Positions 15,175 through 63,013 are shown, numbered from the stretch's first letter. The stretch is 64,000 nt of DNA from a virus (IMGVR_UViG_3300029984_000001:1-64000), one strand, 5' to 3'. Numbers and translations are program-made. Notes: generated by a model not told the origin, from the sequence alone.

Positions 15175-15194
15175 AATTATATATTATTATATTG
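15175..15194 (+). promoter_or_regulatory. Candidate phage promoter (conserved motif)
   Basis: AATTATATATTATTATATTG, a member of the recurrent motif family. It lies 40 nt before the ATG at 15234 and directly after a terminator. Confidence 0.6.
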
Positions 15195-15233
15195 AATACA
15201 TATATTATATTTTAGAAGGAGGACTAATATATT

Positions 15234-15464
15234 ATGAACATATTTCAAGTAACAGCTCCATATGATCAATATACAATAATAATAACAGAAGATATGATAA
15301 AAGTTTTAGAACAAGAGGTATTAGATGAATTAGGTGAAACATCTATGATAACTGTTTGGTTAGATGGTAAGGTATTAGAAAAAATTAAAATAGAAAATGA
15401 TGTAGTTTCTTATGATGAAATTTATCTTAAAATAATAAAATATGAGAATAAGAAAGGAGAATGA
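15234..15464 (+). CDS. Small hypothetical protein, 76 aa
   Basis: ATG 15234 preceded by AGAAGGAGG. Acidic, beta-rich looking start (FQVTAPYDQYTIIITEDMIK) and no membrane segment. First gene of a two-gene unit downstream of a conserved promoter motif; the next gene starts 5 nt after its stop. Not recognised. Confidence 0.75.
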   Translation: MNIFQVTAPYDQYTIIITEDMIKVLEQEVLDELGETSMITVWLDGKVLEKIKIENDVVSYDEIYLKIIKYENKKGE

Positions 15465-15469
15465 TTAAT

Positions 15470-15889
15470 ATGATAAAAGAGGTATTTCCACACAAATTTG
15501 AAATTATAAAAGGTGAGGAGGGTAATTTAAAAATTAAAATTGAAGATAGACATGGTAAAAGAGGAGTATCTAAAATAAAAATGAAAGATGGTACAGATGC
15601 TAATATATTTATTATTAATGAAGATGTTGGAGTACTCAAAAATTTTATAATATGTAAATTAGAAGATGATAATAAAACATGTAATATTATATACAGAATA
15701 AATGTAGATGTAGATAAATTGGTTGAAGATAAAAAAGTTATATACGATTACATAAAAGAAATAAAAGATGATGGTCAAACTGAATTACTCACATTTATGT
15801 TTCATGTTTTAAAACAACATAGAAAATATGAAATGTTTCGTACTGATAGGATTAAAGGAGAATCAGATCACCCTAAATCAAATAAATAA
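15470..15889 (+). CDS. Hypothetical protein, member of a three-copy family in this window
   Basis: About 139 residues. The ATG at 15470 is preferred because AGGAG ends 10 nt upstream; the ATG at 15461 sits only 1 nt from it. The middle part (DANIFII, then FIICKLEDDNKTCNIIYRI) matches the proteins at 16893 (VNIFIIPEIG, then LICKLEEDNRCYILYKI) and 57920 (KVCQIIDNKAYILYEI), so these are paralogues. Likely a small beta-sheet domain followed by a helix. Function unknown. Confidence 0.75.
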   Translation: MIKEVFPHKFEIIKGEEGNLKIKIEDRHGKRGVSKIKMKDGTDANIFIINEDVGVLKNFIICKLEDDNKTCNIIYRINVDVDKLVEDKKVIYDYIKEIKDDGQTELLTFMFHVLKQHRKYEMFRTDRIKGESDHPKSNK

Positions 15890-15897
15890 TTTATAAT

Positions 15898-15929
15898 AGA
15901 GGGGAATAGATTCCCTTCTTTATTTTTTG
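15898..15929 (+). terminator. Rho-independent terminator
   Basis: GAGGGGAA / TTCCCTTC hairpin with a TAGA loop, then TTTATTTTTT, just past the stop at 15889. Confidence 0.8.
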
Positions 15930-15947
15930 TGTAAAAGCATTAATATA

Positions 15948-15968
15948 TGATTATATATTATATAGATG
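15948..15968 (+). promoter_or_regulatory. Candidate phage promoter (conserved motif)
   Basis: TGATTATATATTATATAGAT followed by G. The ATG inside this motif (15966) is in frame with the next gene but belongs to the promoter-like element, not to the protein start. Confidence 0.65.
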
Positions 15969-16007
15969 AGTAAATATATAATATTTAATTTGAAGGGGAG
16001 ATTTAAA

Positions 16008-16703
16008 ATGATAGAAAATAATTTTAAACAAAGTAGAGAAGAAATATTAAAAAGAATTTCAAAAGAACTTAGAGTTCCATTAATACCAATAAAAAGATTA
16101 AAAGTAATTGAAGATGATAATGTATTGGCTAGATTTAAATTAACTATATCTAAGGAATATGTATCTCAAGTAATAGGTGATTTATATAACCTTACATATA
16201 AAGGTTTAAATGATGATATTATAATTGCTTCAAAGAATATAGATAAAGCCTATATAATATTTATCATGAAATATAAACTGAAAGGTAAATTAAAAGAAAT
16301 ATTAAAATCAAAAGTAGGGAGTTATAATTTATCTAATAGTAAATTAGATAGATTAGCTAAAGATAATATTCCAACTAATACAATAGATAGAGTAAGTACT
16401 AAAGAAAAGTATTTAAACAAGATATCTTCTATGATACCAGTTGAGGGTTTAGAAAAAATTTCTAATTTAATAGATGAATTGGGTGAAGGTGAATATTTCC
16501 ATTATAAGGAGATGTTTAATAATTTTTGTAGAATGAAATTACCAGAATTAGAATATTCATGTTTAAGATGTAATGGTAGGGATGTAATTGGATGTAATTG
16601 GAATCGTGATTTTACGATACAAATGATAAGAATTATGATAGATTCATCTGATCTCAGAAAAGAGACTAAAACATTATATTTAAAATTTGTAAATTTATTA
16701 TAA
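16008..16703 (+). CDS. Hypothetical protein, 231 aa, with a possible zinc-binding C-terminus
   Basis: Start set at ATG 16008, 8 nt after GGGGAG; the in-frame ATG at 15966 lies inside the promoter-like motif. The protein is basic and largely helical. Near the C-terminus it has a CLRCNGRDVIGCNW segment that could bind zinc or form a small knuckle. It is the only gene between two motif/terminator units. No family recognised. Confidence 0.75.
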   Translation: MIENNFKQSREEILKRISKELRVPLIPIKRLKVIEDDNVLARFKLTISKEYVSQVIGDLYNLTYKGLNDDIIIASKNIDKAYIIFIMKYKLKGKLKEILKSKVGSYNLSNSKLDRLAKDNIPTNTIDRVSTKEKYLNKISSMIPVEGLEKISNLIDELGEGEYFHYKEMFNNFCRMKLPELEYSCLRCNGRDVIGCNWNRDFTIQMIRIMIDSSDLRKETKTLYLKFVNLL

Positions 16704-16713
16704 TATTATTACA

Positions 16714-16743
16714 TAGGAGGATTTTATTCTTCCTAATTTTTTT
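16714..16743 (+). terminator. Rho-independent terminator
   Basis: TAGGAGGA / TCTTCCTA imperfect stem followed by ATTTTTTT, 10 nt past the stop of the preceding gene. Confidence 0.7.
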
Positions 16744-16765
16744 ATGATTATATATTATATATATG
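16744..16765 (+). promoter_or_regulatory. Candidate phage promoter (conserved motif)
   Basis: ATGATTATATATTATATATA followed by TG, almost identical to the copy at 15948. It lies 38 nt before the ATG at 16804. Confidence 0.65.
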
Positions 16766-16803
16766 AGTAGTATATAGAAATTATTATAAAGGAGTGTTTA
16801 TAA

Positions 16804-16896
16804 ATGATTTGCGAGAGACTATTAAAAGATATAAAAAGACAAGATATAGGTATAGGTAAGGTAGTAAACCAGAAGGAGCGTTATTCCACTCTATGA
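16804..16896 (+). CDS. Small protein, 30 aa, coupled to the next gene
   Basis: ATG 16804 behind AAAGGAG; stop TGA overlaps the next start as ATGA at 16893-16896. Product is basic (KDIKRQDIGIGKVVNQKERY). Because the next protein seems shorter at its N-terminus than its paralogue at 15470, this could be the detached 5' part of one gene after a frameshift, or a true leader peptide with translational coupling. Confidence 0.5.
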   Translation: MICERLLKDIKRQDIGIGKVVNQKERYSTL

Positions 16897-17219
16897 TTTT
16901 AGTTGATGGTAAACGAACTGGATTGTTTACTGTTAATATGAATAATCAAACAGATAAAGTTAATATTTTTATAATACCAGAGATAGGAAATAAATTTGAT
17001 GGTAATATCTTGATATGCAAGTTAGAAGAAGACAACCGTTGTTACATATTATATAAAATACATATTTCAATTTTTGATTTATTAGAAAGTGATTACTATA
17101 GATTTTTATACTCTACAGAAATATTAAAAGATAATGAAAAAGGAATAGGAGTTGTATTTTTATCTACATTAAGAGTGAGAAAAAGAATACTTACTAGGTT
17201 TTATAAAGGAGAGATTTAA
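16893..17219 (+). CDS. Hypothetical protein, paralogue of 15470 and 57920 products
   Basis: 108 residues. No strong Shine-Dalgarno at the usual distance (AAGGAG is about 14 nt upstream), so translation is probably coupled through the ATGA overlap with 16804. Shares the NIFII ... ILICKLEEDNRCYILYKI core with the product of 15470 and, more distantly, with that of 57920. The next gene starts 1 nt after its stop. Function unknown. Confidence 0.75.
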   Translation: MILVDGKRTGLFTVNMNNQTDKVNIFIIPEIGNKFDGNILICKLEEDNRCYILYKIHISIFDLLESDYYRFLYSTEILKDNEKGIGVVFLSTLRVRKRILTRFYKGEI

Positions 17220-17220
17220 T

Positions 17221-17820
17221 ATGAAAAATAATAAAGAAATTATGACATCAATGACTTTAAGATTATCTTTAGAAACAAAGAATAAATTTTCTAAATGGTG
17301 TAGAGTTGGAAATATAACTCAGGGTGATGGTTTAACTAAGTTGTTTAATAATTATAAGGGAGATAATTCAATTGATGGTATTAATGAAGATACAAATAAT
17401 ATCACTTTATTATTAAGATATCAAGATTATATAAATGATAAACATTTAGAATCAAAAAGATATATATGTAATGATGGTGAGGTTTTATATAAATCTAAAA
17501 TAAATAAAATTTATATAAATAATATTGAGGATAAATGGAAGCATACGTTATCTGAATCTGGTTATGAATTTATGTCTTATGATTTTAAATTAATAAAAGA
17601 GAATGATAAGGATAGATATTTAATTCATCAAAATTTTTATATAGGAAATGAATATAAAGCGGTATTTAATATAATGAATATACATATAGTGAAAGATTAT
17701 ATTGATATTATAAAGATAATAGAAAAATATACTAGAGAAGAAGATAAAGATAAAATTGAAATGTTGCTTGCTAAAGAAATGACCGACGAAGAATTTGAAG
17801 ATTATCTTAATAAAAATTAA
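17221..17820 (+). CDS. Hypothetical protein with a ribbon-helix-helix-like N-terminus
   Basis: 199 residues, ATG 17221 behind AAAGGAG. The first 35 residues (MTSMTLRLSLETKNKFSKWC) resemble a ribbon-helix-helix or CopG-like DNA-binding start, a beta strand TLRL followed by helices. The rest is mixed alpha/beta and acidic at the end (EEDKDKIEMLLAKEMTDEEF). A DNA-binding regulator is possible but not established. Confidence 0.75.
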   Translation: MKNNKEIMTSMTLRLSLETKNKFSKWCRVGNITQGDGLTKLFNNYKGDNSIDGINEDTNNITLLLRYQDYINDKHLESKRYICNDGEVLYKSKINKIYINNIEDKWKHTLSESGYEFMSYDFKLIKENDKDRYLIHQNFYIGNEYKAVFNIMNIHIVKDYIDIIKIIEKYTREEDKDKIEMLLAKEMTDEEFEDYLNKN

Positions 17821-17841
17821 ATTTAAAGGAGAGATTTAAAC

Positions 17842-18063
17842 ATGACTTTATCAACAAACAGATTAAAACTAATCAGAAGTTTTAAACAATTAACACCAGA
17901 TGTTTGTAAAAATGAAACAGATAATATTATCAAAGAAAGAAGATTAAAATGTATAAAGTATTTAGAATCTTTAGATACTGAAAGGATATTGGAAAATGAA
18001 ATAGATAAAGCTTTTGATATAGATAATGGTAAAATCGAATATGAAATTGAGGAGGATGAATAA
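17842..18063 (+). CDS. Small hypothetical protein, 73 aa
   Basis: ATG 17842 after AAAGGAG, predicted helical. The N-terminal half is basic and the C-terminus very acidic (KIEYEIEEDE). It ends 1 nt before the next start and is part of the 16804-19487 operon. Not recognised. Confidence 0.75.
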   Translation: MTLSTNRLKLIRSFKQLTPDVCKNETDNIIKERRLKCIKYLESLDTERILENEIDKAFDIDNGKIEYEIEEDE

Positions 18064-18064
18064 A

Positions 18065-18379
18065 ATGGATAAAGATTTATCTATTAAATCTATTTTCGAT
18101 AAATTAAAAATAGTGAAATTACACTCACCATTTGAAGATTATTTGATTAAGAACAATTTACATTATACTAAATATCTTGATACTTATAGTATAAGTAATT
18201 CAAATTCTGATATTAATAAAATAATATTAAATAAATCTTGTGTTAGTATTAATATTATTTCAGATATAAATGATATGGCAGAGGAGATGAAAAGGTTAAA
18301 TGATATAGTGAAATTATTAGAGTATTATTTTAAAGTAGAAATGTATAAGAGTATTAGACCAGAATTTTGGAAAGGATAA
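18065..18379 (+). CDS. Hypothetical protein, 104 aa
   Basis: Start set at ATG 18065 because GAGGAGG lies just upstream inside the end of the previous gene; an in-frame ATG at 18026 has no such signal. Helical, mildly basic, with a methionine-rich helix (DINDMAEEMKRLNDIVKLLE). Same operon as its neighbours. Function unknown. Confidence 0.7.
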   Translation: MDKDLSIKSIFDKLKIVKLHSPFEDYLIKNNLHYTKYLDTYSISNSNSDINKIILNKSCVSINIISDINDMAEEMKRLNDIVKLLEYYFKVEMYKSIRPEFWKG

Positions 18380-18405
18380 AATAAATAAGGAGTTTGATTG
18401 GAGAG

Positions 18406-18927
18406 ATGAATAAGAAAAAGTTTATATCGTATCTTAAACATAATGGTTTTAAAGTAATAGATAAAGATAAAGAAATATTTATAGGAACAAATAATCCAGC
18501 TAATATTACTAATGTAGGAGTTACTTATAATTATATTACTCATAAAATATTTATAGAGGAATTTAGAGATATATCTATAGAGGATTTATTAAACATATGT
18601 ATTGTAATAGATGAATATAATCATGTAGAACAATTCTTTGATACTGAAGGAGTAACAGAAAAGTTTAAGAATCCTTTAAGTATATTTATGTGTAAGAAAA
18701 ATAAATATGAGGAGTATGAACAAGAGTTTCAAAAGTTTGTATTGGAATTGGAGTGTTGTAATAATAAATATAGAGAAAGTAATATAAAATTGATTGATGG
18801 GTTATTTATAGATACTAGAGGTTTATCTATAAAGAATAAAATAAAATTTCAAATAAAAAAGTCAGAAGAAATAGATGATAAGACTAAAGAAATTTATGTA
18901 ACTTTAGCAGAAAAGAAATGTAAATAA
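18406..18927 (+). CDS. Hypothetical protein, 173 aa
   Basis: ATG 18406 chosen; a TTG at 18394 in the same frame lies too close to the AAGGAG. The N-terminus (KFISYLKHNGFKVIDKDKEI) looks like an alpha/beta fold of the sort found in small phage-specific proteins. No catalytic motif is visible. Same operon as 16804-19487. Confidence 0.7.
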   Translation: MNKKKFISYLKHNGFKVIDKDKEIFIGTNNPANITNVGVTYNYITHKIFIEEFRDISIEDLLNICIVIDEYNHVEQFFDTEGVTEKFKNPLSIFMCKKNKYEEYEQEFQKFVLELECCNNKYRESNIKLIDGLFIDTRGLSIKNKIKFQIKKSEEIDDKTKEIYVTLAEKKCK

Positions 18928-18944
18928 GAGGGGATGAATTAAAT

Positions 18945-19487
18945 ATGAGTAAAAATTTATGTATATTCTGTGTAAATCAAAAAGAATGTAAATCTTGTAA
19001 AGATGAAGATAAACTTATTCCTAATGATAATATTATTAGTTATTTTAAAATGAGCCATGATTATGTAGATGGAACAGTAGTATATGAATATTATTACGAT
19101 TCTTTGAATAGTAATTTAAAATCCACTAAGTCTGTAATTATGAATGATACTGAGAGATGTCCATATTGTGGTAACATTAAACTTACTATTCAATCTAAAG
19201 AAGATATATACACAACAATAGGATCTTGTTGTTTATGTGAAGGAGCTATCAATGAAATAAAATATAATGAAGATTTGAAGAAGTTGAATGATGAATATAA
19301 TAATAATAAAAATGATTTATTAAATAAATACAAAGACTTATTAAAGTATGATTTACAAACGTTATTTGAGATTAAACAAAGAGTTGAATTAAAAAGATTT
19401 AATTTCTTCAATAAAGATTCAACTTATAATACTTTGAATACATTCGGAGGAAAAGATTCAATGAAAATAGAAGATATATTATTTTAA
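18945..19487 (+). CDS. Zinc-ribbon-containing hypothetical protein, 180 aa
   Basis: ATG 18945 behind GAGGGG. The N-terminus has C-x2-C-x5-C-x2-C (CIFCVNQKECKSC), followed by CPYCGN around residue 70 and CCLC around residue 95, consistent with one or two zinc-binding sites. The C-terminal part is a lysine/asparagine-rich coiled coil. Last gene of its operon. Possibly a nucleic-acid or transcription-associated protein, but no family is recognised. Confidence 0.75.
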   Translation: MSKNLCIFCVNQKECKSCKDEDKLIPNDNIISYFKMSHDYVDGTVVYEYYYDSLNSNLKSTKSVIMNDTERCPYCGNIKLTIQSKEDIYTTIGSCCLCEGAINEIKYNEDLKKLNDEYNNNKNDLLNKYKDLLKYDLQTLFEIKQRVELKRFNFFNKDSTYNTLNTFGGKDSMKIEDILF

Positions 19488-19490
19488 CTT

Positions 19491-19521
19491 AATAGGGGAG
19501 TTGTTCCCCTATTATTTTTTA
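19491..19521 (+). terminator. Rho-independent terminator
   Basis: AATAGGGGA / TCCCCTATT stem with a GTTGT loop followed by ATTTTTT. Confidence 0.85.
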
Positions 19522-19567
19522 TATTACATAGACATAAACTTTGTATTAGGGAGAGGAGGGATTTAAT

Positions 19568-20068
19568 ATGTTAATAAATAGAGTTTGGAATATGCCATCT
19601 AAAAATACTTTTGAAATTCTACCTATAAAACAATTAATTTCAAAATATATAATTGGTAAAGAGGTGGTTATAGATCCTTTTGCTAATAAAAATACTATAG
19701 CAAATATAACAAACGATCTAGATCCTCAATATGATACTATATTTAATAAAGATGCTGTAGATTTCTTAAAAATAATACCATCAGATTCAGTTGATATGGT
19801 ACTATACGATCCACCTTATTCATCTAGGCAAGTGTCTGAATCTTACAAGAAATTAGGAATGAGTGTAGATAAAACTACAACTCAATCTAGTTATTGGAGT
19901 GAGCAGAAAAAAGAGATAGCAAGAGTTACAACAAAAGGTGCTATAGTTATTTCTTTTGGTTGGAATAGTTGTGGTGTGGGAAAGGTCAGAGGTTTTGAAA
20001 TTATAGAAATATTAATGGTCAGTCATGGTGTCATGGTGGGAATCATTATGATACAATATGTACAGTAG
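19568..20068 (+). CDS. Adenine-specific DNA methyltransferase, C-terminus frameshifted by an 8-bp duplication
   Basis: Reads 166 residues from ATG 19568 (GAGGAGGG upstream). A DPPY catalytic motif is at residues 81-84 within [14 protein letters not shown], and an SAM-binding-like region [11 protein letters not shown] is near 37, typical of N6-adenine methylases. The last 20 or so residues are out of register: TCATGGTG occurs twice in tandem at 20023-20030 and 20031-20038. Removing one copy restores a reading ending [19 protein letters not shown] with stop at 20083-20085, matching the usual end of such enzymes. As written, the protein has an aberrant tail and may be inactive, or the duplication may be a switchable repeat or a sequencing artefact. 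Confidence 0.8.
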
Positions 20069-20102
20069 AACAAAAAATAATATAAGAAATGAGGAATTAA
20101 AA

Positions 20103-20894
20103 ATGAAATCATATGAAGAACAATATTTAGAACTATCAGAAAACATTTTAAAAGATGGATATTATGATAATAATAGAACTGGGGTCTCTACATATAAATT
20201 ACCACATCAAATTATACAAGTTAATTTAGAAAATGAATTTCCTATATTAACATCTAAATTCGTTGCATTTAAAACTGCTGTTAAAGAGCTTCTATGGATT
20301 TTTAAAGATCAATCTAATATAGTACAAGAACTAAAAGATCAAAATGTTAATATATGGAATGAGTGGGAAATGGAAGATGGTACTATAGGAGAAAGTTATG
20401 GATGGATTGTTAAGAAATATAATCAAATAGATACACTTATAGATGCTTTAAAAAATAATCCACAAGATAGAAGAATGATGATAAATTTATGGCAAATACC
20501 ACACTTAGATAAAGGTGCTCTATATCCATGCTGTTTCCAAACCTTATGGGATGTTACTGATGGAAGATTAAACTGTATGCTAATACAACGTAGTGCAGAT
20601 ACACCATTAGGTTTACCATTTAACACAACTCAATATGCTGTACTTGTACATATGTTAGCTCAAGTAACAGGTCTAAAAGTTGGATTGTTTACTCACGTAA
20701 TAAATAATGCTCACATTTATGAAAATCAAATAGATGGAATGAATGAGCAATTATCTAGAAAGAATGATTTATATAATAGTCCTACATTTTGGATAAATCC
20801 AGAAATAAAAGATTTTTATGATTTTACATCAGACGATGTAAAACTTATAGATTATAAACATCATAGTGCAATAAAAATGCCAGTATCAGTATAA
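20103..20894 (+). CDS. thyA: Thymidylate synthase, ThyA type
   Basis: 263 residues. ATG 20103 is preferred because GAGG lies 10 nt upstream; an in-frame upstream ATG at 20058 falls inside the preceding methylase gene. Makes dTMP from dUMP with methylene-tetrahydrofolate. Diagnostic features: [13 protein letters not shown] near the start, catalytic Cys143 in [11 protein letters not shown], the conserved [13 protein letters not shown] block and NNAHIYENQ. Length is normal for ThyA. It follows a methylase and precedes a macro-domain gene, giving a nucleotide/DNA-modification block. Confidence 0.95.
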
Positions 20895-20912
20895 AGAAAG
20901 AGGTGTAAAATT

Positions 20913-21368
20913 TTGATAAGAATTGTAGAGGATTCTATATTCAATGCAAAGGAAAATATAATTTGCCATCAAGTAAATACGCAAGCAAAAATGGGTAGTG
21001 GGTTGGCATTAGAAATGAAAGATAGGTATCCAGTGGTGTATAATGATTATATGAGACTATGTGAAAAGCATTATAAAGAGAATAAACCATTATTAGGTAT
21101 ATGTCAATTAGTATCTGTTAATAATACTAAATTTGTAGCTAATTTATTTGGTTAAGATTTTTATGGTAATGATAAAAAATATACTAATTATAATGCATTA
21201 ATAAGAGGTTTTACAAGATTATTTCTAAATGCTAATTGTGATATAGCAATACCTTATCTAATTGGATGTGATAATGGTGGAGGAGATTGGAAGAAGCTAT
21301 ATAATATAATTGAAATATTAGCAGAGGATTTTCCATATAATGTAGTAATATATAAATACCATCCATAA
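20913..21368 (+). pseudogene. Macro-domain (ADP-ribose binding) gene interrupted by an in-frame TAA
   Basis: TTG start at 20913 behind AAGAGGTG. The first 80 residues are a typical macro domain: IICHQVNTQAKMGSGLALEM, with the ADP-ribose-binding VNxxxxMGSG loop. A TAA at 21153-21155 interrupts it after VANLFG. The same frame continues without further stops for 71 codons (DFYGNDKKYTNYNAL, then the loop IPYLIGCDNGGGDW) to TAA at 21366-21368. Family members have glutamine (CAA) at the stop position, so one C-to-T change explains the break. The intact protein would be 151 residues and would act on ADP-ribose derivatives. Confidence 0.8.
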
Positions 21369-21375
21369 ATACAAT

Positions 21376-21399
21376 ATAAGGGATTAATCCCTTATATTT
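21376..21399 (+). terminator. Rho-independent terminator
   Basis: ATAAGGGAT / ATCCCTTAT hairpin followed by ATTTC, just past the macro gene; a weak T tract. Confidence 0.6.
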
Positions 21400-21567
21400 C
21401 ATAAACTGGTTAAATATAATAAAAAATAATTACGTAATTCACATTAATTTAAAAGAAATAAATCCATAATTAGATTCGTAATTATAAATAAGAACTAATA
21501 ATCGTAGATAACTGATAAGAACAGACAAGAAGGGAGTATCAATATAAAATGTAAATGGGGTATATAA

Positions 21568-21981
21568 ATGAATAAAAATGATTTATTAAAATCCATATCA
21601 GAACAAAACAGAATATTACATAAAGTATCAGAAAACAATACTCATGAAATAAAATCTACAAGTAGATTAAAAACATTATCACTTACATTAAAAGTAGAAG
21701 AAACAAGATTACCTAAACCTAATGGAGTAATGCCTATAATAAAAACATTACAAAATATATCAGAAGAACTATATATAAGTACTAAAGAATTAGTAAATAA
21801 GGATAGATATAATCTAAGAAGAGTAACTAAAGAAATACAAGATTACTCATTAGAGATGGTAGAATTAATACAATCTTATAATAATTACATAAGATTTATC
21901 ATGGATAATGATATGAAGATTGAAAAAACAATAGATGAATTTACAGAAGAAGATATAAAAGAATGGTCTAAACCCAAATAA
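21568..21981 (+). CDS. Hypothetical helical protein, 137 aa
   Basis: ATG 21568, 8 nt after GGGG. Predicted all-helical with heptad-like leucine/isoleucine spacing and even charge. The 200 nt before it hold a terminator and AT-rich sequence with no clear copy of the conserved promoter motif. Single-gene unit closed by a terminator. Function unknown. Confidence 0.75.
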   Translation: MNKNDLLKSISEQNRILHKVSENNTHEIKSTSRLKTLSLTLKVEETRLPKPNGVMPIIKTLQNISEELYISTKELVNKDRYNLRRVTKEIQDYSLEMVELIQSYNNYIRFIMDNDMKIEKTIDEFTEEDIKEWSKPK

Positions 21982-21983
21982 CT

Positions 21984-22016
21984 ATATAAAGGAGTATTTA
22001 ACTCCTTTATATTTTA
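21984..22016 (+). terminator. Rho-independent terminator
   Basis: ATATAAAGGAGT / ACTCCTTTATAT perfect stem with an ATTTA loop, followed by TTTTAT. Confidence 0.8.
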
Positions 22017-22030
22017 TATCAAATTTATTT

Positions 22031-22052
22031 ATAATTGTATATTATAGTATTG
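22031..22052 (+). promoter_or_regulatory. Candidate phage promoter (conserved motif)
   Basis: ATAATTGTATATTATAGTAT then TG, the G-variant of the conserved motif. It stands 52 nt before the Ntn-hydrolase gene. Confidence 0.65.
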
Positions 22053-22103
22053 TAAACAGTATATTGTATATAAATAAATTATAATGAAGAGGAGACGATT
22101 AAA

Positions 22104-22706
22104 ATGACAGTAATTTTAGGAGTAGTAGACAAGAGAAGCAAAACGGTACATATCATGGGTGATTCAATGGTTAGTAGAGGCGAAAGTATTGCATATGAAA
22201 TTAATAAAATTTGGACTTCTAATGATTTTGTAATTGGAAGTGCTGGTTCATTAACTATGATACAATCATTAAAAAGACAATTACATTTTCCATCACAAAA
22301 AGATATTGAAGATAATAATTTGACTATTGATATTGATTTTATGGTAAATCAATTATGTCCAGCAATCAAACAATTAGTCAAAAATAATAATTTATCTGAA
22401 AATGATTTAGCTGATATTCTAGTAGGATATAAAGAAGACTTATATTACATAACATCATATTTTAACGTAATAAAAATAAGAGAGTATCAATCTATAGGTT
22501 CTGGTTGTACAAGAGCAGAAGCAGCATTTCAAAATTCAAATATACAAGATATAGAAAAAGCATTATTCCATTCAATATTATATGCTACAAAAAATATAAG
22601 ATCTTGTAGTATGCCTGCTTATTGCATAAACACTAAAGATAAACAATTTAAGAAATACGATTCAAATGGACATTGGACATTAAGTAAGGTTGATGAACAA
22701 TGGTAG
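22104..22706 (+). CDS. Proteasome/HslV-like Ntn-hydrolase
   Basis: 200 residues, ATG 22104 behind GAGGAG. The start MTVILGVVDKRSKTVHIMGD parallels HslV, whose Met is removed to expose catalytic Thr1: here Thr2 would be the nucleophile, with Asp20 (MGDSM) and Lys35 (NKIW) at the positions of the Asp17/Lys33 pair. The AGSLTMIQ and YQSIGSGCTRAEAAF segments match the proteasome-fold GSG loop. A typical HslV is about 175 residues. No HslU-like unfoldase adjoins it, although AAA+ ATPases occur at 34594-38252. It probably assembles as an oligomeric peptidase or a non-proteolytic relative. Its stop overlaps the HAD gene, so both should be made together. Confidence 0.75.
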   Translation: MTVILGVVDKRSKTVHIMGDSMVSRGESIAYEINKIWTSNDFVIGSAGSLTMIQSLKRQLHFPSQKDIEDNNLTIDIDFMVNQLCPAIKQLVKNNNLSENDLADILVGYKEDLYYITSYFNVIKIREYQSIGSGCTRAEAAFQNSNIQDIEKALFHSILYATKNIRSCSMPAYCINTKDKQFKKYDSNGHWTLSKVDEQW

Positions 22707-23284: not shown

Positions 23285-23290
23285 ATTATA

Positions 23291-23605: not shown

Positions 23606-23606
23606 T

Positions 23607-24692: not shown

Positions 24693-24707
24693 TTGGAGGA
24701 ATGAATT

Positions 24708-25838: not shown

Positions 25839-25860
25839 ATAATTGTATATTATAATAATG
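25839..25860 (+). promoter_or_regulatory. Candidate phage promoter (conserved motif)
   Basis: ATAATTGTATATTATAATAA then TG, 18 nt before the next ATG; only one ribosome-binding site separates them. Confidence 0.65.
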
Positions 25861-29267: not shown

Positions 29268-29379
29268 TATATTTAGTATATTATCTATACTTATCAAATA
29301 GATAAGCTGAATAATATATTTATATACATAAGGACAAACATTAGATTACAATATATAGAAGAAAAGGGAGATGTGTATT

Positions 29380-32484: not shown

Positions 32485-32507
32485 TATAGTTATATATTAT
32501 ATCTATG
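32485..32507 (+). promoter_or_regulatory. Candidate phage promoter (conserved motif)
   Basis: TATAGTTATATATTATAT then CTATG, a full consensus match, 26 nt before the next ATG. Confidence 0.7.
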
Positions 32508-40637: not shown

Positions 40638-40660
40638 TATAATTGTATATTATATTTATG
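40638..40660 (+). promoter_or_regulatory. Candidate phage promoter (conserved motif)
   Basis: TATAATTGTATATTATATTT then ATG, a full match of the G-variant, 39 nt before the ATG at 40699. Confidence 0.7.
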
Positions 40661-41808: not shown

Positions 41809-41837
41809 AACATATCAATAAAAGGAGTTGATATGTT
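41809..41837 (+). promoter_or_regulatory. Hairpin that presents the ribosome-binding site of the next gene
   Basis: Perfect 10-bp inverted repeat AACATATCAA (41809-41818) / TTGATATGTT (41828-41837). The 9-nt loop TAAAAGGAG contains the Shine-Dalgarno and the ATG at 41838 abuts the stem. It cannot be a terminator (no T tail). It could control initiation at the next gene by folding or by binding a protein. Confidence 0.65.
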
Positions 41838-43310: not shown

Positions 43311-43333
43311 TATAGTTATATATTATATAGATG
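43311..43333 (+). promoter_or_regulatory. Candidate phage promoter (conserved motif)
   Basis: TATAGTTATATATTATAT then AGATG. The ATG here (43331) is in frame with the next gene but belongs to the motif. Confidence 0.7.
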
Positions 43334-45272: not shown

Positions 45273-45290
45273 TTATATATTATAGAACTG
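45268..45290 (+). promoter_or_regulatory. Candidate phage promoter (conserved motif)
   Basis: TATAGTTATATATTATAG then AACTG, overlapping the stop of the previous gene (TAG at 45270-45272), so it serves the 45317-48927 unit without a terminator before it. Confidence 0.65.
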
Positions 45291-50337: not shown

Positions 50338-50379
50338 AATCAACACTCCTTAATATTTTTTATTATTTAAAAGTTTAAG

Positions 50380-51437: not shown

Positions 51438-51496
51438 AAAAACACATCCTTTCTTTATTTTAATTACTTATATGTTTTTTAGTAAAAGTTCAATAT

Positions 51497-51519
51497 TATA
51501 ACTGTATATTATAATAGTG
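51497..51519. promoter_or_regulatory. Candidate phage promoter, possibly bidirectional
   Basis: On the plus strand, TATAACTGTATATTATAATA then GTG, 35 nt before the ATG at 51554. The opposite strand reads GTTATAATATTGAAC, matching the right half of other copies, and faces the endolysin gene at 51437. A divergent promoter pair is likely. Confidence 0.6.
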
Positions 51520-53189: not shown

Positions 53190-53213
53190 TCAACTGTATA
53201 ATAACTATAGATG
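53190..53213. promoter_or_regulatory. Candidate divergent promoter, near-palindromic motif
   Basis: Plus strand: CAACTGTATAATAACTATAG then ATG, 15 nt before the holin start. Minus strand: CTATAGTTATTATACAGTTG followed by AAAC, which faces the 52460 gene. Both strands read as variants of the same motif. Confidence 0.5.
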
Positions 53214-53479: not shown

Positions 53480-53517
53480 TTGGACAAACATAATTATAAT
53501 CTCTTGTCATGAATATG

Positions 53518-53551: not shown

Positions 53552-53561
53552 CAAAAAAGAT

Positions 53562-53584
53562 TATAGTTATATATTATATTATTG
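53562..53584 (+). promoter_or_regulatory. Candidate phage promoter (conserved motif)
   Basis: TATAGTTATATATTATATTA then TTG, a full consensus match, 30 nt before the ATG at 53614. Confidence 0.7.
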
Positions 53585-53613
53585 AATAAATTTAAATGGG
53601 GGGAATGTTTAAA

Positions 53614-54435: not shown

Positions 54436-54438
54436 AAT

Positions 54439-54467
54439 AGAGAGTTTTAATACTCTCTTTATTTTTT
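54439..54467 (+). terminator. Rho-independent terminator
   Basis: AGAGAGT / ACTCTCTTT stem, TTTAAT loop, then ATTTTTT; the next operon's ribosome-binding site begins 25 nt later. Confidence 0.8.
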
Positions 54468-54507
54468 ATCTTTTCACATATAAATAAGATAGAGGAGGTA
54501 TTATATA

Positions 54508-56973: not shown

Positions 56974-56999
56974 ATAAAGAAAAAGAGGAGGAATAAATA

Positions 57000-57848
57000 A
57001 TGATTATACTTAAAAATGAAATAGTAAAAGTAAGTGATAGGATAAATATAACAGACAAAAATCAAATTGATGAGTTTAGTAGAAAGAATCGTATATTTAT
57101 CAAAGATCATGCAACTGGTAAAGATATTTTTGGTTCAGATCCATTACATAATAAAGTTGTACTCGCAGGTTCTACTTATAATGCTCAAAGAATATGTCCT
57201 GTAATAAAACCTAAGATTTGGACTCCTACATATAATACTGATTTAGTATTAGATAATAGTGTTAATGAACCATATACAGGAGAAGGTGGTAGACCTGGTG
57301 AATACGTATTCTTAATTGCTGTTGGTAAGAATGGTAGTGGTCCAGATTTATCTCAAAAGAAGTTAGTTAAATATGCTTCAAGAATTGAACCTGAAGATCT
57401 AGTGCCATTTAAATATGTACCAGTTGCTAATGATATTACAGTAGCACAAAGAGCTAAATATTTTGGTAGAAAAAAAGGTGATGCTAGAATAGCTTATAAT
57501 TTCAAAACATGGGAAGGTACTCCTGAATATAAACAACAATTCTTAGATGGAACTCCTATAGATGAAAATATATATAGTTCTGAAAGAGCAAAGAAAGAAG
57601 AAGTAGAATCATTTATTCAATACTACTTTAAAATAACAACAGATGATTGTAGAGATTGGTTTAGATATACAACATCTATGGCTGATGCTAGAATATCCCA
57701 AATATCATTATTAACTGCATGGAAGAAGACAATAAATGGTTTTGATTATTTCCAAGATATAAGACCATATACAGTATTAAATCTTACTACAGAATTATTA
57801 ATAGATGAAGATAAAGCATTTGATATAATATATCAAGTACTTCCATAA
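57000..57848 (+). CDS. Probable virion structural protein, 282 aa
   Basis: ATG 57000 behind AAGAGGAGG. Beta-rich with a glycine-rich loop (EPYTGEGGRPGEYVFLIAVG) and a C-terminal alpha/beta part ending in RPYTVLNLTTELLIDEDKAF. It follows the 821-residue protein in the same operon. Composition is closer to a tail/baseplate component than to an enzyme. Not assigned to a family. Confidence 0.7.
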   Translation: MIILKNEIVKVSDRINITDKNQIDEFSRKNRIFIKDHATGKDIFGSDPLHNKVVLAGSTYNAQRICPVIKPKIWTPTYNTDLVLDNSVNEPYTGEGGRPGEYVFLIAVGKNGSGPDLSQKKLVKYASRIEPEDLVPFKYVPVANDITVAQRAKYFGRKKGDARIAYNFKTWEGTPEYKQQFLDGTPIDENIYSSERAKKEEVESFIQYYFKITTDDCRDWFRYTTSMADARISQISLLTAWKKTINGFDYFQDIRPYTVLNLTTELLIDEDKAFDIIYQVLP

Positions 57849-57865
57849 TATTATCTAATACAAAT

Positions 57866-57883
57866 TATGATTATATATTAATG
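57866..57883 (+). promoter_or_regulatory. Shortened copy of the promoter motif
   Basis: TATGATTATATATTA then ATG, with the usual 4-6 nt spacer shortened; 37 nt before the ATG at 57920. Weaker candidate than the others. Confidence 0.45.
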
Positions 57884-57919
57884 AATACATAATTAATAAT
57901 TTGAAAGAAGGTAATATAA

Positions 57920-58303
57920 ATGGAAAAGAAATTATATGAAGGTGATTTAAAAGTATTAGTATATAATAATATAAATAATGTTGATATACCTTATATATTA
58001 GTAAAATTAAATAATAATTTTTTAAGAAAACCTATATGGACTTTAGAAAAAGATAATTTAAATGGAATATGTATTATATTTGATCATATAAATATAATGA
58101 ATGAAAAACATTTACATAAAGTATGTCAGATTATAGATAATAAAGCATATATATTATATGAGATAGAGATTAATGTAAATTTAGCTTTAAAAGACAAATC
58201 ATATGTATATGGAAAAATGCTTGATATACAAGAAGATGGTTATGAAGAATTATATAGTTTAGTTTCTAATTATATAATGAAATATGCTGAAATATGTAGG
58301 TGA
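57920..58303 (+). CDS. Hypothetical protein, third copy of the 15470/16893 family
   Basis: 127 residues, ATG 57920 behind GAAGGTA. HLHKVCQIIDNKAYILYEIE aligns with the NxCKLEDDNKTCNIIYRI core of the other two, and GKMLDIQEDGYEELYSLVSN matches KEIKDDGQTELLTFMFHVLK of 15470. The three copies are 40 kb apart at most. Function unknown; possibly a small binding domain used several times. Confidence 0.7.
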   Translation: MEKKLYEGDLKVLVYNNINNVDIPYILVKLNNNFLRKPIWTLEKDNLNGICIIFDHINIMNEKHLHKVCQIIDNKAYILYEIEINVNLALKDKSYVYGKMLDIQEDGYEELYSLVSNYIMKYAEICR

Positions 58304-58312
58304 TTTTAAACA

Positions 58313-58345
58313 TAAAGAGTTATTTAGGTAGCTCTTTATTTTTTT
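58313..58345 (+). terminator. Rho-independent terminator
   Basis: AAAGAG-T-TA / TA-G-CTCTTT hairpin followed by ATTTTTTT; the next gene's ribosome-binding site starts 5 nt later. Confidence 0.7.
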
Positions 58346-58364
58346 CTGAAAGGAGGTATTATAA

Positions 58365-59588
58365 TTGAGATATCCTAAAATGATTGATAAAGAAGAAGAT
58401 GTAAAATATATATTAAATCTTAAACCTTCTGATGTTACTAAATCAACAGTAATAAAAATGTTTGGAGAGTTTAATGGTAAAGCAAGATTTAATCCTTATG
58501 ATGAAATAATGATTCCTAAGGATGCTTATGGTGAATCTCCTTGGAAGAATAAAAAACCTTTCTTAACAACTGTTGGATTATGGATGTTTAATATCCATTT
58601 TATATCAGAGAAATTTACACATGTATTCGATGGTTATATAAATAAAACTATAAATGGTAAAGAGTTTGGTAAAATGAATTCCAGATTATCTTATGCTTTA
58701 ATGGAAGATGATATTACTACAGATGACATGGATTATTTTTTTATGAGATGTGAAAAGTTCATGCCATTTGTTTCTATAATTTCTCCAACCATGAGTGAAA
58801 AAATGTTAACCTGTGGTACAGTAGCAGCTAAGAAATTAAATGAATTATATAAGAAGAAATATAAAGAGAGAATAGATGCTAAAGATCCTTTTGCTGCTGA
58901 TCAAATGGAACAAGAAGTATTAGATTACATGAGAGTGTATTTAGATGGTGATGAGTCTATGGATTTATTTGATTCTGGTGCAAGAGGAAGCTTTGGTAAT
59001 AACTTTAAAAACATGTTTGTTAGTAAAGGTGCTACAAGAGACCCAGACACTGGTGAATATAATATAATTATGAGTAATTATATGAATGGTATATCTAAAA
59101 AAGACTATGCTCCTATGTCTAATTCATTGGCTAGTGGACCTTATGGTAGAAGCCGTTTAACGGCACTTGGAGGTTACAAAGAGAAGCAAATATCGTCCGC
59201 GTATCAACATGTCGTACTCATGGACGGAGGATCTGATTGTTTAACTAAAAGATATATTGAGGTTTTCTTAACGGATAAAAATGTAGAAGAATATATGTAT
59301 AATTATATAATTGATGGTCCAGATTTAATTGAAATGACAAGTAAAAATATGAAAAAATATATAAATAAAGTTGTTAAAATGAGATTCTCTAATATGTGTG
59401 AATCGAAAAATGGATATTGTAATAAATGTGCTGGAAACATGTTCTTTAGATTAGGATTTAAGAATATAGGTCTAGCCTTATCTATTATAGCAGCAACTCA
59501 AAAACAAAAAACGATGAAGGGTTTCCACGATTCTACAATTAAATTTACTGAGATGAATCCACTTAAAGCTTTTACAGGACATTTTTAA
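58365..59588 (+). CDS. RNA polymerase beta' subunit, C-terminal half
   Basis: 407 residues from a TTG start at 58365 (AGGAGG, 8-nt spacing). DSGARGSFGNNFKNM near residue 202 matches the bridge-helix SGARGS of beta'. RSRLTALGGYKEKQISSAYQ near 265 parallels the trigger-loop/ANSGYLTRRLVDVAQ segment, followed by a GSDC for the DCGT cysteine, then CESKNGYCNKC near 344-356, the C-terminal zinc cysteines, and LSIIAATQKQKTMKGFHDST, equivalent to [21 protein letters not shown]. The catalytic DFDGD motif belongs to the N-terminal half, which is encoded downstream at 63085. Split RNAP subunits are typical of phiKZ/AR9-like jumbo phages. Confidence 0.88.
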   Translation: MRYPKMIDKEEDVKYILNLKPSDVTKSTVIKMFGEFNGKARFNPYDEIMIPKDAYGESPWKNKKPFLTTVGLWMFNIHFISEKFTHVFDGYINKTINGKEFGKMNSRLSYALMEDDITTDDMDYFFMRCEKFMPFVSIISPTMSEKMLTCGTVAAKKLNELYKKKYKERIDAKDPFAADQMEQEVLDYMRVYLDGDESMDLFDSGARGSFGNNFKNMFVSKGATRDPDTGEYNIIMSNYMNGISKKDYAPMSNSLASGPYGRSRLTALGGYKEKQISSAYQHVVLMDGGSDCLTKRYIEVFLTDKNVEEYMYNYIIDGPDLIEMTSKNMKKYINKVVKMRFSNMCESKNGYCNKCAGNMFFRLGFKNIGLALSIIAATQKQKTMKGFHDSTIKFTEMNPLKAFTGHF

Positions 59589-59597
59589 TTATTCATT

Positions 59598-59635
59598 ATA
59601 GAGAGGATAATTCCTCTCTATATTTTATTTTTTTA
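59598..59635 (+). terminator. Terminator after beta' C-terminal gene
   Basis: ATAGAGAGGA / TCCTCTCTAT hairpin with a TAAT loop, then TATTTTATTTTTTT. Confidence 0.85.
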
Positions 59636-59672
59636 CTATAGGTCGTACATACTGTTAGAGGTGATGATTTAA

Positions 59673-60464
59673 ATGAAAACGTTTATGACTAGAATACCAA
59701 TAATACCCGAATCAACGGAAAGAATAGCTGATTATTTTCCAGAAATTCAAGATATATACACAATAACTAATAAAGGGAAAATATATAGTGAAGTTGCAAA
59801 TAGAAATCTAAAACCAAAAATAAGTAAGAAAGGTTATGAAGAGTTAAAATTAAGATTAAAACCAGAATTTCATGTTGGTAATAGAGAAGAAAAACATTTC
59901 TCTGTTCATAGGGGAGTAAAGTTATGTTTTGACCCAATACCAAACCCAGAAAAATATCAAGTAAATCATGTATTGGGTATTAAAACAATAAATGAAATAG
60001 AAGTATTAGAATATTGTACTAATAGAGAAAATATGGATCACGCAATGAGAATGAATTTGGTCTCTAAATGTGAAACTAAATATAATGCTACTCTGACAAA
60101 TGAACAAGTCCATCAAATATGCAAATACTTACAAATAGGGATGCCGTATAAAGATATATCTAGAATTATGTTGAATAGAGATGTAGATAAAAGTATAAGC
60201 GATATTCTTAGTTCAATTAAACATAATCGTAGTTGGTCTGATATATCCTTACAATATAATTTTGATATCAGTAAACCTCATTATCAAATTTTTAATGATA
60301 ATCAAATAGAAATTATATTAAATCATATCTCTGACGGATTGGATAATAATAACATTTTAAAATCTATGAATTATGATTTAGAAAACATACCATCAGAAGT
60401 TATAAATAAATTAAATAATGATATGAATGCTATTAGAAATGGTGCTAAATCTTCAAGAGGATGA
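59673..60464 (+). CDS. HNH homing-type endonuclease with the KxFMxR start
   Basis: 263 residues, ATG 59673 behind AGAGGTG. Begins MKTFMTRIPII, the shared start motif. IYTITNKGKIYS resembles the NUMOD4 segment preceding HNH domains; SVHRGVKLCFDPIPNPEKYQ then VNHVLGIKTINEIEVLEYCT and NRENMDHA follow the VHRLVxxxFIPNP ... VNHxxGxKxxNxxxxLExxTxxENxxHA pattern of phage HNH endonucleases. The C-terminal half is helical, with a possible DNA-binding repeat. It lies between the two beta' pieces. Independent of the introns at 30013 and 31019. Confidence 0.8.
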   Translation: MKTFMTRIPIIPESTERIADYFPEIQDIYTITNKGKIYSEVANRNLKPKISKKGYEELKLRLKPEFHVGNREEKHFSVHRGVKLCFDPIPNPEKYQVNHVLGIKTINEIEVLEYCTNRENMDHAMRMNLVSKCETKYNATLTNEQVHQICKYLQIGMPYKDISRIMLNRDVDKSISDILSSIKHNRSWSDISLQYNFDISKPHYQIFNDNQIEIILNHISDGLDNNNILKSMNYDLENIPSEVINKLNNDMNAIRNGAKSSRG

Positions 60465-60493
60465 TAGAGAGGGATTATCCCTCTCTATATTTT
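60464..60493 (+). terminator. Rho-independent terminator
   Basis: ATAGAGAGGG / CCCTCTCTAT perfect stem, ATTAT loop, ATTTTAAC; overlaps the preceding stop. Confidence 0.85.
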
Positions 60494-60510
60494 AACGAAT
60501 AACATCTCCT

Positions 60511-60532
60511 ACAACTATATATTATATAAGTG
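60511..60532 (+). promoter_or_regulatory. Candidate phage promoter (conserved motif)
   Basis: ACAACTATATATTATATAAG then TG, 34 nt before the ATG at 60566. Confidence 0.6.
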
Positions 60533-60565
60533 TATATAAATCAAATTTTAAGGAGATGTTTATAA

Positions 60566-61954
60566 ATGGAAGAGAAAATCAAAGAAAACCAAGTACATAT
60601 TGTAGTATTTGATCAGAATGGATTACCTACGGTAAGAGTTTTTACAGACCTAGACAAATGTTCTGATTATGTTAAATTTATATCATTAAAGACTAATATA
60701 TTCACAAAAGGTATGTTTACAGAAACTCTTGATAGAGGATCGAACGAAATAAAATACACCGATAATAATTTTATAAAAGTATGGAAAGATTCACATCCAG
60801 AACCTACTGAAGAAAACCAATTACATGTAGTATTATTTTCATTGGATGGAAAACCTTTAGTACGAGTTTTTACTGATTTAAGTAAAGGTGCTGAATATCA
60901 AAACTATATATCATTAAATCGTCATATTACGGTTTATATGTTTACAGAAACTATTGATATAGGATTAGAAGAGATGAAATCTATGACTCCTCTTATGTTT
61001 CCTGAAGTATGGGGAAATGCATATCTGGATTCTGATCAAAATTATAAACAAATGAAAGAACTCGATATAGATCAAGAATGTAACAAAATGAATTTAAAAG
61101 ACGATATTAAAGCTAGGGGATTTATTCAAACTAAGAATGAATCTGACATTTCTGAAGAAAAAGAAGAAAGTTCTTTTATAACAATGAAAGTCCCAGAATT
61201 CTTAGGGATAGGTTCGGCATTTAATACAGACTTAGGTAATACTTCTTGTTATTTTATAGAGCTAGATACATTAATATTAATTGATTGTGGTAGTGATGTA
61301 TTTCCTAAAGTAAAGAAAATATTGAATAAATATGATTATATAAAACACGTTAATATATTAATAACACACATGCATTCAGATCATACAGGTTCATTACCTA
61401 CCCTAATAGAATATTGTTATCATACTAAAAAGATAATACCTGAAATAATATATCCTGAACAATCAAAAATGAGAGATATGCTAAATGATCATTTAATTGG
61501 AGAAGAATTATATAGTACGGATTTTCATTCTTCACCAATAAGAGGTGAAAAAGGATATTGTGTAACGTCTACTAATAGTGCTGTTAAATTCAAAATAAAT
61601 ACTATAAAATTAGTACATAATATATATAATGATTGGTATTCGTATGGATATATAATAAATCGTTCTGATAAAACTTTTATATTTGTATGGGATACTTGTG
61701 ATGTACATCCAGAAATACATAGTATCTTTAGATCTGAATGTAATAGATTAGGAAGTGAAAATGTATATTTATTTCATGATGTTTATTTTGAAGATTTTGC
61801 GGGATGTCCACATACCAATTTTAATAAAATTAAAAGTGTTATAACCAAAAATAAAGATAGAGTTTTCTTTGTACATTTAGATAATAAAGAAGAGTTAGAT
61901 AAGATTGCTAAAGAAAGTGGATTTGGTGATATAAATTTATTCTATAAAAAATAA
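60566..61954 (+). CDS. Metallo-beta-lactamase-fold hydrolase with duplicated N-terminal module
   Basis: 462 residues, ATG 60566 behind AAGGAG. Residues about 5-70 and 78-146 are two copies of one module (HIVVFDQNGLPTVRVFTDLD and HVVLFSLDGKPLVRVFTDLS, each ending in an ETxDxGxxE, KVW/EVW segment). A linker follows, then from about 210 a metallo-beta-lactamase fold: ITHMHSDHTGS near 265 with the HxHxDH zinc motif, a later WDTCDVHPE acid, HDVYFEDF and VFFVHLDN histidines. The substrate may be a nucleotide, RNA or lactone; unknown. Duplicated modules are of unknown function and could be binding domains. Confidence 0.8.
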   Translation: MEEKIKENQVHIVVFDQNGLPTVRVFTDLDKCSDYVKFISLKTNIFTKGMFTETLDRGSNEIKYTDNNFIKVWKDSHPEPTEENQLHVVLFSLDGKPLVRVFTDLSKGAEYQNYISLNRHITVYMFTETIDIGLEEMKSMTPLMFPEVWGNAYLDSDQNYKQMKELDIDQECNKMNLKDDIKARGFIQTKNESDISEEKEESSFITMKVPEFLGIGSAFNTDLGNTSCYFIELDTLILIDCGSDVFPKVKKILNKYDYIKHVNILITHMHSDHTGSLPTLIEYCYHTKKIIPEIIYPEQSKMRDMLNDHLIGEELYSTDFHSSPIRGEKGYCVTSTNSAVKFKINTIKLVHNIYNDWYSYGYIINRSDKTFIFVWDTCDVHPEIHSIFRSECNRLGSENVYLFHDVYFEDFAGCPHTNFNKIKSVITKNKDRVFFVHLDNKEELDKIAKESGFGDINLFYKK

Positions 61955-61966
61955 GGAGGAAATAAT

Positions 61967-62269
61967 GTGACTAATAAAAAAGCTATCCCTAGAGCAGCCA
62001 GATCCTTAAGAGTAGTTCTTGGATTTAAAAATTCTATTAAAGTAGTTAAAAAGTTAATTAATCATGATAGTGAAGAAGAAATATTAAAATTCATTTCAAA
62101 TTGTGATGTATTTATTGAAACTAAAATAACGGGAATATGTGACAGAGATGGAGGTTTAGAAGGATATCATACTCTTAATAAAAATAATAAATCTTGCCGT
62201 ATTTCTTTTTGTTGCACTGGTATGTATATACCAAATTCTGATAATACTAAGGCTGACCCCTTGGTATGA
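61967..62269 (+). CDS. Hypothetical protein, 100 aa
   Basis: GTG start 61967 (AAGGAGGA upstream; the ATG two bases earlier reads into TGA). Basic N-terminus (NKKAIPRAARSLRVVLGFKN), then an acidic helix and a cysteine-containing C-terminus (CRISFCCTGMYIPNSDN). Same operon as the metallo-beta-lactamase fusion. Not recognised. Confidence 0.7.
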   Translation: MTNKKAIPRAARSLRVVLGFKNSIKVVKKLINHDSEEEILKFISNCDVFIETKITGICDRDGGLEGYHTLNKNNKSCRISFCCTGMYIPNSDNTKADPLV

Positions 62270-62294
62270 ATCAATAAATTAGGAGGAATTATAA

Positions 62295-62897
62295 ATGGAT
62301 AAAAAAGGACATATTTGGTATATAAATGAAGAGGGAAAATATTGTAGATTATTTGAGTTTATGGTTTATATAATTAAACCCGTGACAATATCTGATATAA
62401 TTAAATTTGAATTAGATTTTGATAATGGTCAAAAATTAATAAGAGAAGTGAATGAATGTAAAATAGAAGGACCTTATATTTTAGATCAACATTGTTTTGG
62501 TGACAATGAATCTATTGTAATGAAACATCATAAATTAGGTAATTTGCAAGAGATAAATAAAGAAGAAATAATATCTGGTATAAAAGAAAAAATAAATGAA
62601 ATAGAAAGATTAAAAGAACTTATAACATTATCAGAAGAAATCAATATGGGTAATATTTGTACTAATAATATAATTGTTGATTTTGGAATAACTAAATGTG
62701 TATTCACAGATAGCGAAATTTATTATTTACACTCAATTAATAAAATAGGAATTTCTACAGATATAGATTGTACTGGTACAAGTTTTGAATTTGATGATAT
62801 TAAAGAAGGTTATAAAATCATAGTATCATATAAAGATTCAGGTAATGAATCAATATATGATGAACCTCATTTATTAGTAGAATTTATAGAAAAATAA
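62295..62897 (+). CDS. Hypothetical protein, 200 aa
   Basis: ATG 62295 behind AGGAGG. The N-terminal WYINEEGKYCRLFEFMVYII and the central acid/basic coil (SGIKEKINEIERLKELITLS) suggest an alpha/beta start, a coiled coil and a beta-rich end (IVDFGITKCVFTDSEIYYLH). No catalytic motif. Last gene before a terminator and the beta' N-terminal unit. Confidence 0.75.
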   Translation: MDKKGHIWYINEEGKYCRLFEFMVYIIKPVTISDIIKFELDFDNGQKLIREVNECKIEGPYILDQHCFGDNESIVMKHHKLGNLQEINKEEIISGIKEKINEIERLKELITLSEEINMGNICTNNIIVDFGITKCVFTDSEIYYLHSINKIGISTDIDCTGTSFEFDDIKEGYKIIVSYKDSGNESIYDEPHLLVEFIEK

Positions 62898-62950
62898 ATA
62901 TACACAAACTATATAATGTTGAGAGGTTTTCTATATATAATTTATTATTT

Positions 62951-62982
62951 ATAAAGAGGTGTAAAAACCTCTTTATTTTTTA
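62951..62982 (+). terminator. Terminator before the beta' N-terminal unit
   Basis: ATAAAGAGGT / ACCTCTTTAT perfect stem with a GTAAAA loop and TTTTTAAT tail. Confidence 0.85.
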
Positions 62983-62990
62983 ATATCCGT

Positions 62991-63013
62991 TATAATTATA
63001 TATTATAATATTG
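62991..63013 (+). promoter_or_regulatory. Candidate phage promoter (conserved motif) for beta' N-terminal gene
   Basis: TATAATTATATATTATAATA then TTG, close to the full consensus, 72 nt before the ATG at 63085; a short GTG-started frame overlaps in between, but it has no convincing ribosome-binding site. Confidence 0.7.

Follow-up and report, generated by a model that had tools for sequence, protein, structure and literature searches.

A conserved intergenic motif of an uncultivated giant phage, very probably an early promoter of the phiKZ/AR9 type

Introduction

Which RNA polymerase (RNAP) reads the AT-rich motif that recurs between positions 15,175 and 63,013 of the virus record IMGVR_UViG_3300029984_000001, and when during infection? 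We address this question in the window, bases 1-64000 of the 263,571-bp record, the rest of which was read in stretches. An initial annotation of the window had listed 13 main copies and two weaker ones, and had proposed a single motif before most operons, a promoter for a phage-encoded RNAP comparable to the late TATG promoters of phage phiKZ. We present here evidence that the motif is very probably a promoter of the early class, in a giant phage of the phiKZ/AR9 type, read by an RNAP packaged in the virion and starting transcription at a conserved G.

In Bacillus phage AR9, early promoters determined by differential RNA-seq have the form AAATATATATTAT-(6N)-G+1, and since early transcription does not require protein synthesis, it was ascribed to the virion RNAP (PMC5312081). 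The early element of phiKZ is TATATTAC (PMC7058600). Late transcription starts from promoters that the non-virion RNAP reads, TATG in phiKZ and AACA-6N-TA/G in AR9.

Methods

In the record, 309 genes were called with a simple dicodon/ribosome-binding-site caller, so some start codons are approximate. The early motif was scored with a 38-column weight matrix trained solely on sites outside the window, at a threshold of at least 17 bits. The late motif was defined by a strict pattern; refinement by expectation maximization was not retained, as it shifted onto the ribosome-binding site.

Results

Of the 41 sites that the matrix finds in the record, 13 lie in the window; they are the 13 main copies of the initial annotation, each within a few nucleotides of its listed position. 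The reversed matrix finds 0 sites and third-order Markov simulations give 0.0 per genome, which rules out chance AT-richness as the source of the motif. The consensus is TTATAATT(A/G)TATATTATA-NNNN-T-G(+1)-A-A. The bare 12-mer has 35 matches against 21.5 expected, weak evidence when taken alone because the DNA is so AT-rich. The pattern TTATATATTATA-4N-TG occurs 21 times on the forward and 3 times on the reverse strand of the record (read backwards, 0 and 0). The spacing is specific: TATATTAT-5N-TG has 45 matches, compared with 17 for a 4N, 7 for a 6N, and 15 for a 7N spacer.

Putative early promoters in the window (coordinates, strand, predicted start, matrix score):
15172-15194, +, G+1 at 15194, 21.1 bits; g006 lies 40 nt downstream
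15946-15968, +, G+1 at 15968, 28.6 bits
16743-16765, +, G+1 at 16765, 23.8 bits
22030-22052, +, TTG variant, G+1 at 22052, 25.4 bits
25838-25860, +, TTG variant, G+1 at 25860, 25.6 bits
32485-32507, +, G+1 at 32507, 31.2 bits
40638-40660, +, TTG variant, G+1 at 40660, 32.5 bits
43311-43333, +, before the RNase H gene (PF00075 in the downstream protein), G+1 at 43333, 22.4 bits
45268-45290, +, G+1 at 45290, 21.4 bits
51497-51519, +, in the gap between g063(-) and g064(+), G+1 at 51519, 29.4 bits; a late-type site lies on the opposite strand at 51465-51476(-)
53562-53584, +, G+1 at 53584, 28.0 bits
60510-60532, +, before a metallo-hydrolase gene (AR9 gp022 homologue), G+1 at 60532, 20.0 bits
62991-63013, +, before the non-virion RNAP beta' N-terminal subunit gene g077 (72 nt downstream), G+1 at 63013, 25.2 bits
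57866-57886, +, degenerate early-like motif TTATATATTAATGAATACA, spacer lost, probably non-functional

This last site was one of the two weaker copies; the other, 53190, proved to be a late-type site, AACTGTATAATA.

Forty of the 41 sites are intergenic, while intergenic DNA makes up 7% of the record (binomial p = 4e-45; site 238308 was scored as intergenic after inspection of its sequence). The remaining site, 212332(-), is within g251; its core is imperfect, and it may be a chance match. Start codons follow +1 at a median of 41 nt. A hairpin resembling an intrinsic terminator stands within about 100 nt upstream of 15 of the 41 sites, compared with 9 of 209 genes that have neither the early nor the late motif; the proposal that the motif usually follows a terminator therefore holds as an enrichment but not as a rule.

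A motif this long and this highly conserved might instead be an operator or another DNA-binding site (for an activator, partition, or packaging). It is, however, strand-polar, with 37 intergenic sites in sense and 2 in antisense orientation, its distances to the G and to downstream genes are fixed, and its core and spacing are identical to those of mapped AR9 promoters and also match the AR9 RefSeq promoter features. We find a non-promoter role scarcely credible.

Outside the window, two perfect putative early promoters stand back to back at 161484(-) and 161519(+), with predicted starts 35 nt apart. Another, at 222184(-), has no annotated gene; it is followed by two very short open reading frames that have good ribosome-binding sites, and by a hairpin resembling a terminator, and the product is possibly a small RNA or a micropeptide transcript.

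That the phage encodes its own RNAP, as initially annotated, is borne out: homologues of both multisubunit RNAPs of AR9 are encoded in the record. The virion RNAP genes are g005, g072, and g268, which match AR9 gp188, gp263, and gp144, respectively; the five non-virion RNAP genes are g077, g139, g145, g233, and the sigma-like g253. Against the annotated phage collection, protein identity of the RNAP subunits to their best matches is just about 25-32%. A phmmer search of g253 against PDB and PHROGs gave no match, and its identification rests on phiR1-37 g245, profile iteration to AR9, and synteny with GroEL and primase.

RNAP genes in the window:
9888-15116, +, g005, virion RNAP beta gene, AR9 gp188 homologue (phrog_3148, 4.6e-132)
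58365-59588, +, g072, virion RNAP subunit gene, AR9 gp263 homologue (1e-59; phrog_2962)
63085-64000 (to 64275 in the record), +, g077, non-virion RNAP beta' N-terminal subunit gene (AR9 gp269, 1e-37; phrog_2987)

In the virion RNAP beta homologue (9888-15116, +), residues ~250-335, within a long N-terminal extension, match a GNAT acetyltransferase domain (PF13673, 1e-11). The non-virion RNAP beta' N gene appears to be split by an HNH-type endonuclease gene (63085-64275 and 64518-65303, +, the second part lying outside the window), and its AR9 orthologue is likewise interrupted. Rfam gave no intron match at the beta' N gene at the gathering threshold and zero matches overall in the window and two other stretches of the record.

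The early motif stands directly before g077, g139, g233, and g253 and, for g145, at the head of its operon (g143-g145); all five non-virion RNAP genes are thus covered. It stands directly before no virion RNAP gene and before none of the 21 virion and virion RNAP genes tested. For these 21, the nearest upstream promoter is of the late type in 16 and of the early type in 2; for replication and non-virion RNAP genes it is early in 11 of 19. A motif in this position calls for an enzyme that is already there when the non-virion RNAP is first made. That enzyme is likely the virion RNAP, whose beta gene (9888-15116) is itself late-type; the host enzyme is a less likely reader. The motif thus combines the characters of phiKZ/AR9-type early promoters: a ~10-nt AT-rich element near -10 at fixed spacing to a G, a phage that encodes the virion RNAP beta/beta' subunits (g005, g072, g268), a position ahead of early operons, those with the non-virion RNAP genes among them, and absence directly before virion genes.

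The same context bears on the suggestion of the initial annotation that the non-virion RNAP reads the motif as a late promoter of the phiKZ TATG class. T-1 and G+1 do coincide with the last two letters of TATG, but positions -3 (A 0.48, T 0.32) and -2 (A 0.45, G 0.25) are not conserved as T and A, so the series T-3 A-2 T-1 G+1, all of which the class requires, is incomplete. Moreover, TATG is not enriched upstream of genes, a motif heading the non-virion RNAP genes themselves would pose a bootstrap problem, and late genes bear another motif, matching the AR9 non-virion RNAP promoter. Membership of the TATG class is highly improbable. What stands of the proposal, strongly supported by homology and context, is a promoter that has no -35 box and would be read by a phage-encoded multisubunit RNAP; the class changes, from phiKZ late to early virion RNAP.

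Some observations weigh against the assignment to a virion RNAP. The nearest promoter upstream of the virion RNAP subunit gene g072 is early (at g068, four genes upstream). Placement of early promoters at single genes agrees with AR9 in 1 of 6 cases and is not significant (p = 0.4); agreement is seen only at the operon level, for the non-virion RNAP genes. Finally, TATTAT at -12 to -7, with the start 6 nt downstream, fits the geometry of a bacterial -10 box, so the host sigma-A RNAP might read the motif as a -10 element without a -35 element, the phage polymerases acting later. We consider this very unlikely. The upstream gaps hold zero TTGACA-15/19-TATAAT promoters, in agreement with the initial remark that no -35 box is visible, and the sigma-70 type is thus not represented; conservation reaches far beyond the -10 position on its upstream side, and T-1 G+1 is nearly fixed; and AR9 uses the same motif independently of phage protein synthesis, a use credited to the virion RNAP, an enzyme that the present phage encodes.

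An early promoter read by the virion RNAP is also consistent with its conservation. In G002, a relative with 73% amino acid identity in one RNAP subunit, the early motif is kept at 6 of 6 orthologues (Fisher p = 1e-7). In the present phage, G002, AR9, phiR1-37, and S6 alike, the sigma-like gene is preceded by an early-type motif. Comparable, sense-enriched early motifs were found in AR9, phiR1-37, S6, LPJP1, G002, and G006 (the last also with TATACTAT), and the phiKZ equivalent is TATATTAC-5N-TG. In G006 (L033 record), a 37%-identical relative, early motifs are mixed TATA(T/C)TATA and late motifs are (A/G)ACA-6N-TAA, a drift in both promoter classes. In AR9 (NC_031039.1, L025), RefSeq places an early promoter at 227688-227700 on the + strand; the consensus reads on the - strand, toward the non-virion RNAP beta' N gene.

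By analogy with AR9 and phiKZ, from which the reading enzyme, the exact +1, and the timing are taken, the following programme may be proposed. An RNAP packaged in the virion would be injected with the DNA and would recognize TTATAATT(A/G)TATATTATA, centred near -13, with no -35 element and no host sigma factor. Initiation would occur at the conserved G, 6 nt past TATATTAT, and some 40 early promoters would set off transcription of the early operons, among them the operons of all five non-virion RNAP subunits. The non-virion RNAP would then read AAC(A/T)-6N-TA(+1) before virion RNAP, virion, lysis, and some replication genes.

The late motif in this scheme came from a de novo search of the 162 upstream gaps without an early motif, and the idea of a single motif before most operons gives way to two classes of similar number. 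AAC-7N-TAA, i.e., AACA-6N-TA, was the strongest signal besides terminators, present in 40 sequences against 11 expected. Within 60 nt of starts, the sense strand has 67 copies of AAC(A/T)-6N-TA and the antisense strand 5, about 25 nt and mostly 20-30 nt from the start codon; neighbouring spacings show no enrichment. Three of the sense copies, at g064, g074, and g118, belong to the ATAACT variant of the early motif.

Predicted late-type promoters in the window, from the motif search:
238-249, -, AACATTTTATTA, before g001
9040-9051, -, AACATCCTAATA, before the 2910-aa tail/peptidase gene
9635-9646, -, AACTATATATTA, before g003
9807-9818, -, AACATTGCAGTA, before g004
9854-9865, +, AACATGAGAATA, before the virion RNAP beta gene
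19537-19548, +, AACTTTGTATTA, before g015, then g016 (thymidylate synthase)
29337-29348, +, AACATTAGATTA, before g033
41809-41820, +, AACATATCAATA, before g051, whose AR9 orthologue also has a late motif
50364-50375, -, AACTTTTAAATA, before g062
51465-51476, -, AACATATAAGTA, before the endolysin gene g063
53192-53203, +, AACTGTATAATA, before g067 (the weak 53190 copy)

The motif precedes the genes for virion RNAP beta, the 2910-aa tail/peptidase protein, endolysin, terminase, the major head protein, and other virion proteins, and a DNA polymerase gene. Its presence agrees with that at orthologues in AR9 (15 shared, Fisher p = 1e-4) and G002 (18 shared, p = 1e-8). In pattern and in its position before late genes it matches AACA-6N-TA/G of AR9, and by its sequence it is of the AR9 late, non-virion RNAP promoter class. 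The same element was found de novo in phiR1-37 (AACA-6N-TAG), LPJP1 and S6 (AACA-6N-TAT), and G006 (ACA-6N-TAA, often with G before it), and was not found de novo in phiKZ. The 2910-aa protein (282-9014, -), which has a late-type promoter upstream, contains NlpC/P60 and M23 peptidase domains in its C-terminal region.

Late promoters of AR9 need uracil at template positions -11 and -10; in gp226, thymine at -10 is blocked by V206, which clashes with the methyl group of that base, and the V206G variant takes both bases (PMC9209446). The equivalent residue, in a region where the alignment of sigma-like subunits has a gap, is Ala225 in the present phage and Ser in G002, with an adjoining one-residue deletion; it is Pro in G007 and Val in AR9, phiR1-37, S6, SA1, LPJP1, G008, and G006. 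The present phage encodes the thymidylate synthase ThyA (g016, 20058-20894, +; PF00303, E = 9e-91), which was not found in AR9, phiR1-37, S6, or LPJP1. dCMP deaminase, 5'-nucleotidase, and guanylate kinase, common to those four phages, have no convincing homologues in it. Together, Ala225, ThyA, and the missing AR9-type nucleotide genes suggest thymine DNA with a thymine-tolerant enzyme, and the DNA of the present phage probably contains thymine. That this phage and G002 use an AR9-type late promoter (AAC-6N-TA, read on the template strand) in thymine DNA, with a sigma-like subunit that naturally accepts thymine, is a tentative and rather doubtful proposal: the correlation between Val206 and thymine is not clean, since G006 has ThyX yet keeps Val, and G007 has Pro and a dUTPase.

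Discussion

Taken together, the early and late sets amount to a full map of predicted transcription in this uncultivated giant phage. A 2020 review held that late promoters are not predictable by bioinformatics, and a passage of the AR9 paper reports that the phiR1-37 transcriptome gave no late consensus (PMC5312081). De novo search recovers AR9-type late promoters in a divergent clade that includes phiR1-37; an earlier description of such a prediction is possible, our literature search having covered open papers. If the thymine proposal were true, uracil dependence would not be inherent to a template-strand promoter system, and natural variants would allow its dissection by comparison.

The early motif is a further case of the known AR9/phiKZ early promoter type. 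Like the early (virion RNAP) promoters of AR9/PBS1, it has a TATATATTAT core and 6N to G+1 and precedes early and non-virion RNAP operons; AR9 has AAA upstream of the core, whereas the present phage has TTATAATT(A/G) and additional conserved A at -6 and T at -1. The present phage has 41 sites; AR9 has 34 annotated and 41 mapped. With the early promoters of phiKZ, 201phi2-1, OBP, and N1M2 (TATATTAC or KATATTAT) it shares an AT-rich core near -10, then 5N and TG, and phiKZ differs by C at -7 (TATATTAC). The phiKZ late promoter TATG likewise ends in TG at the start site, but the present motif lacks the conserved TA at -3/-2, has a long upstream element, and would be read by a different enzyme. 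The second motif shares AAC, the gap, and TA(+1) with the AR9 late promoter AACA-6N-TA/G; -8 is A or T here, and the start is A here and A/G in AR9. Finally, the AR9 late promoter depends on uracil at template -11 and -10, whereas its counterpart in the present phage probably carries thymine.

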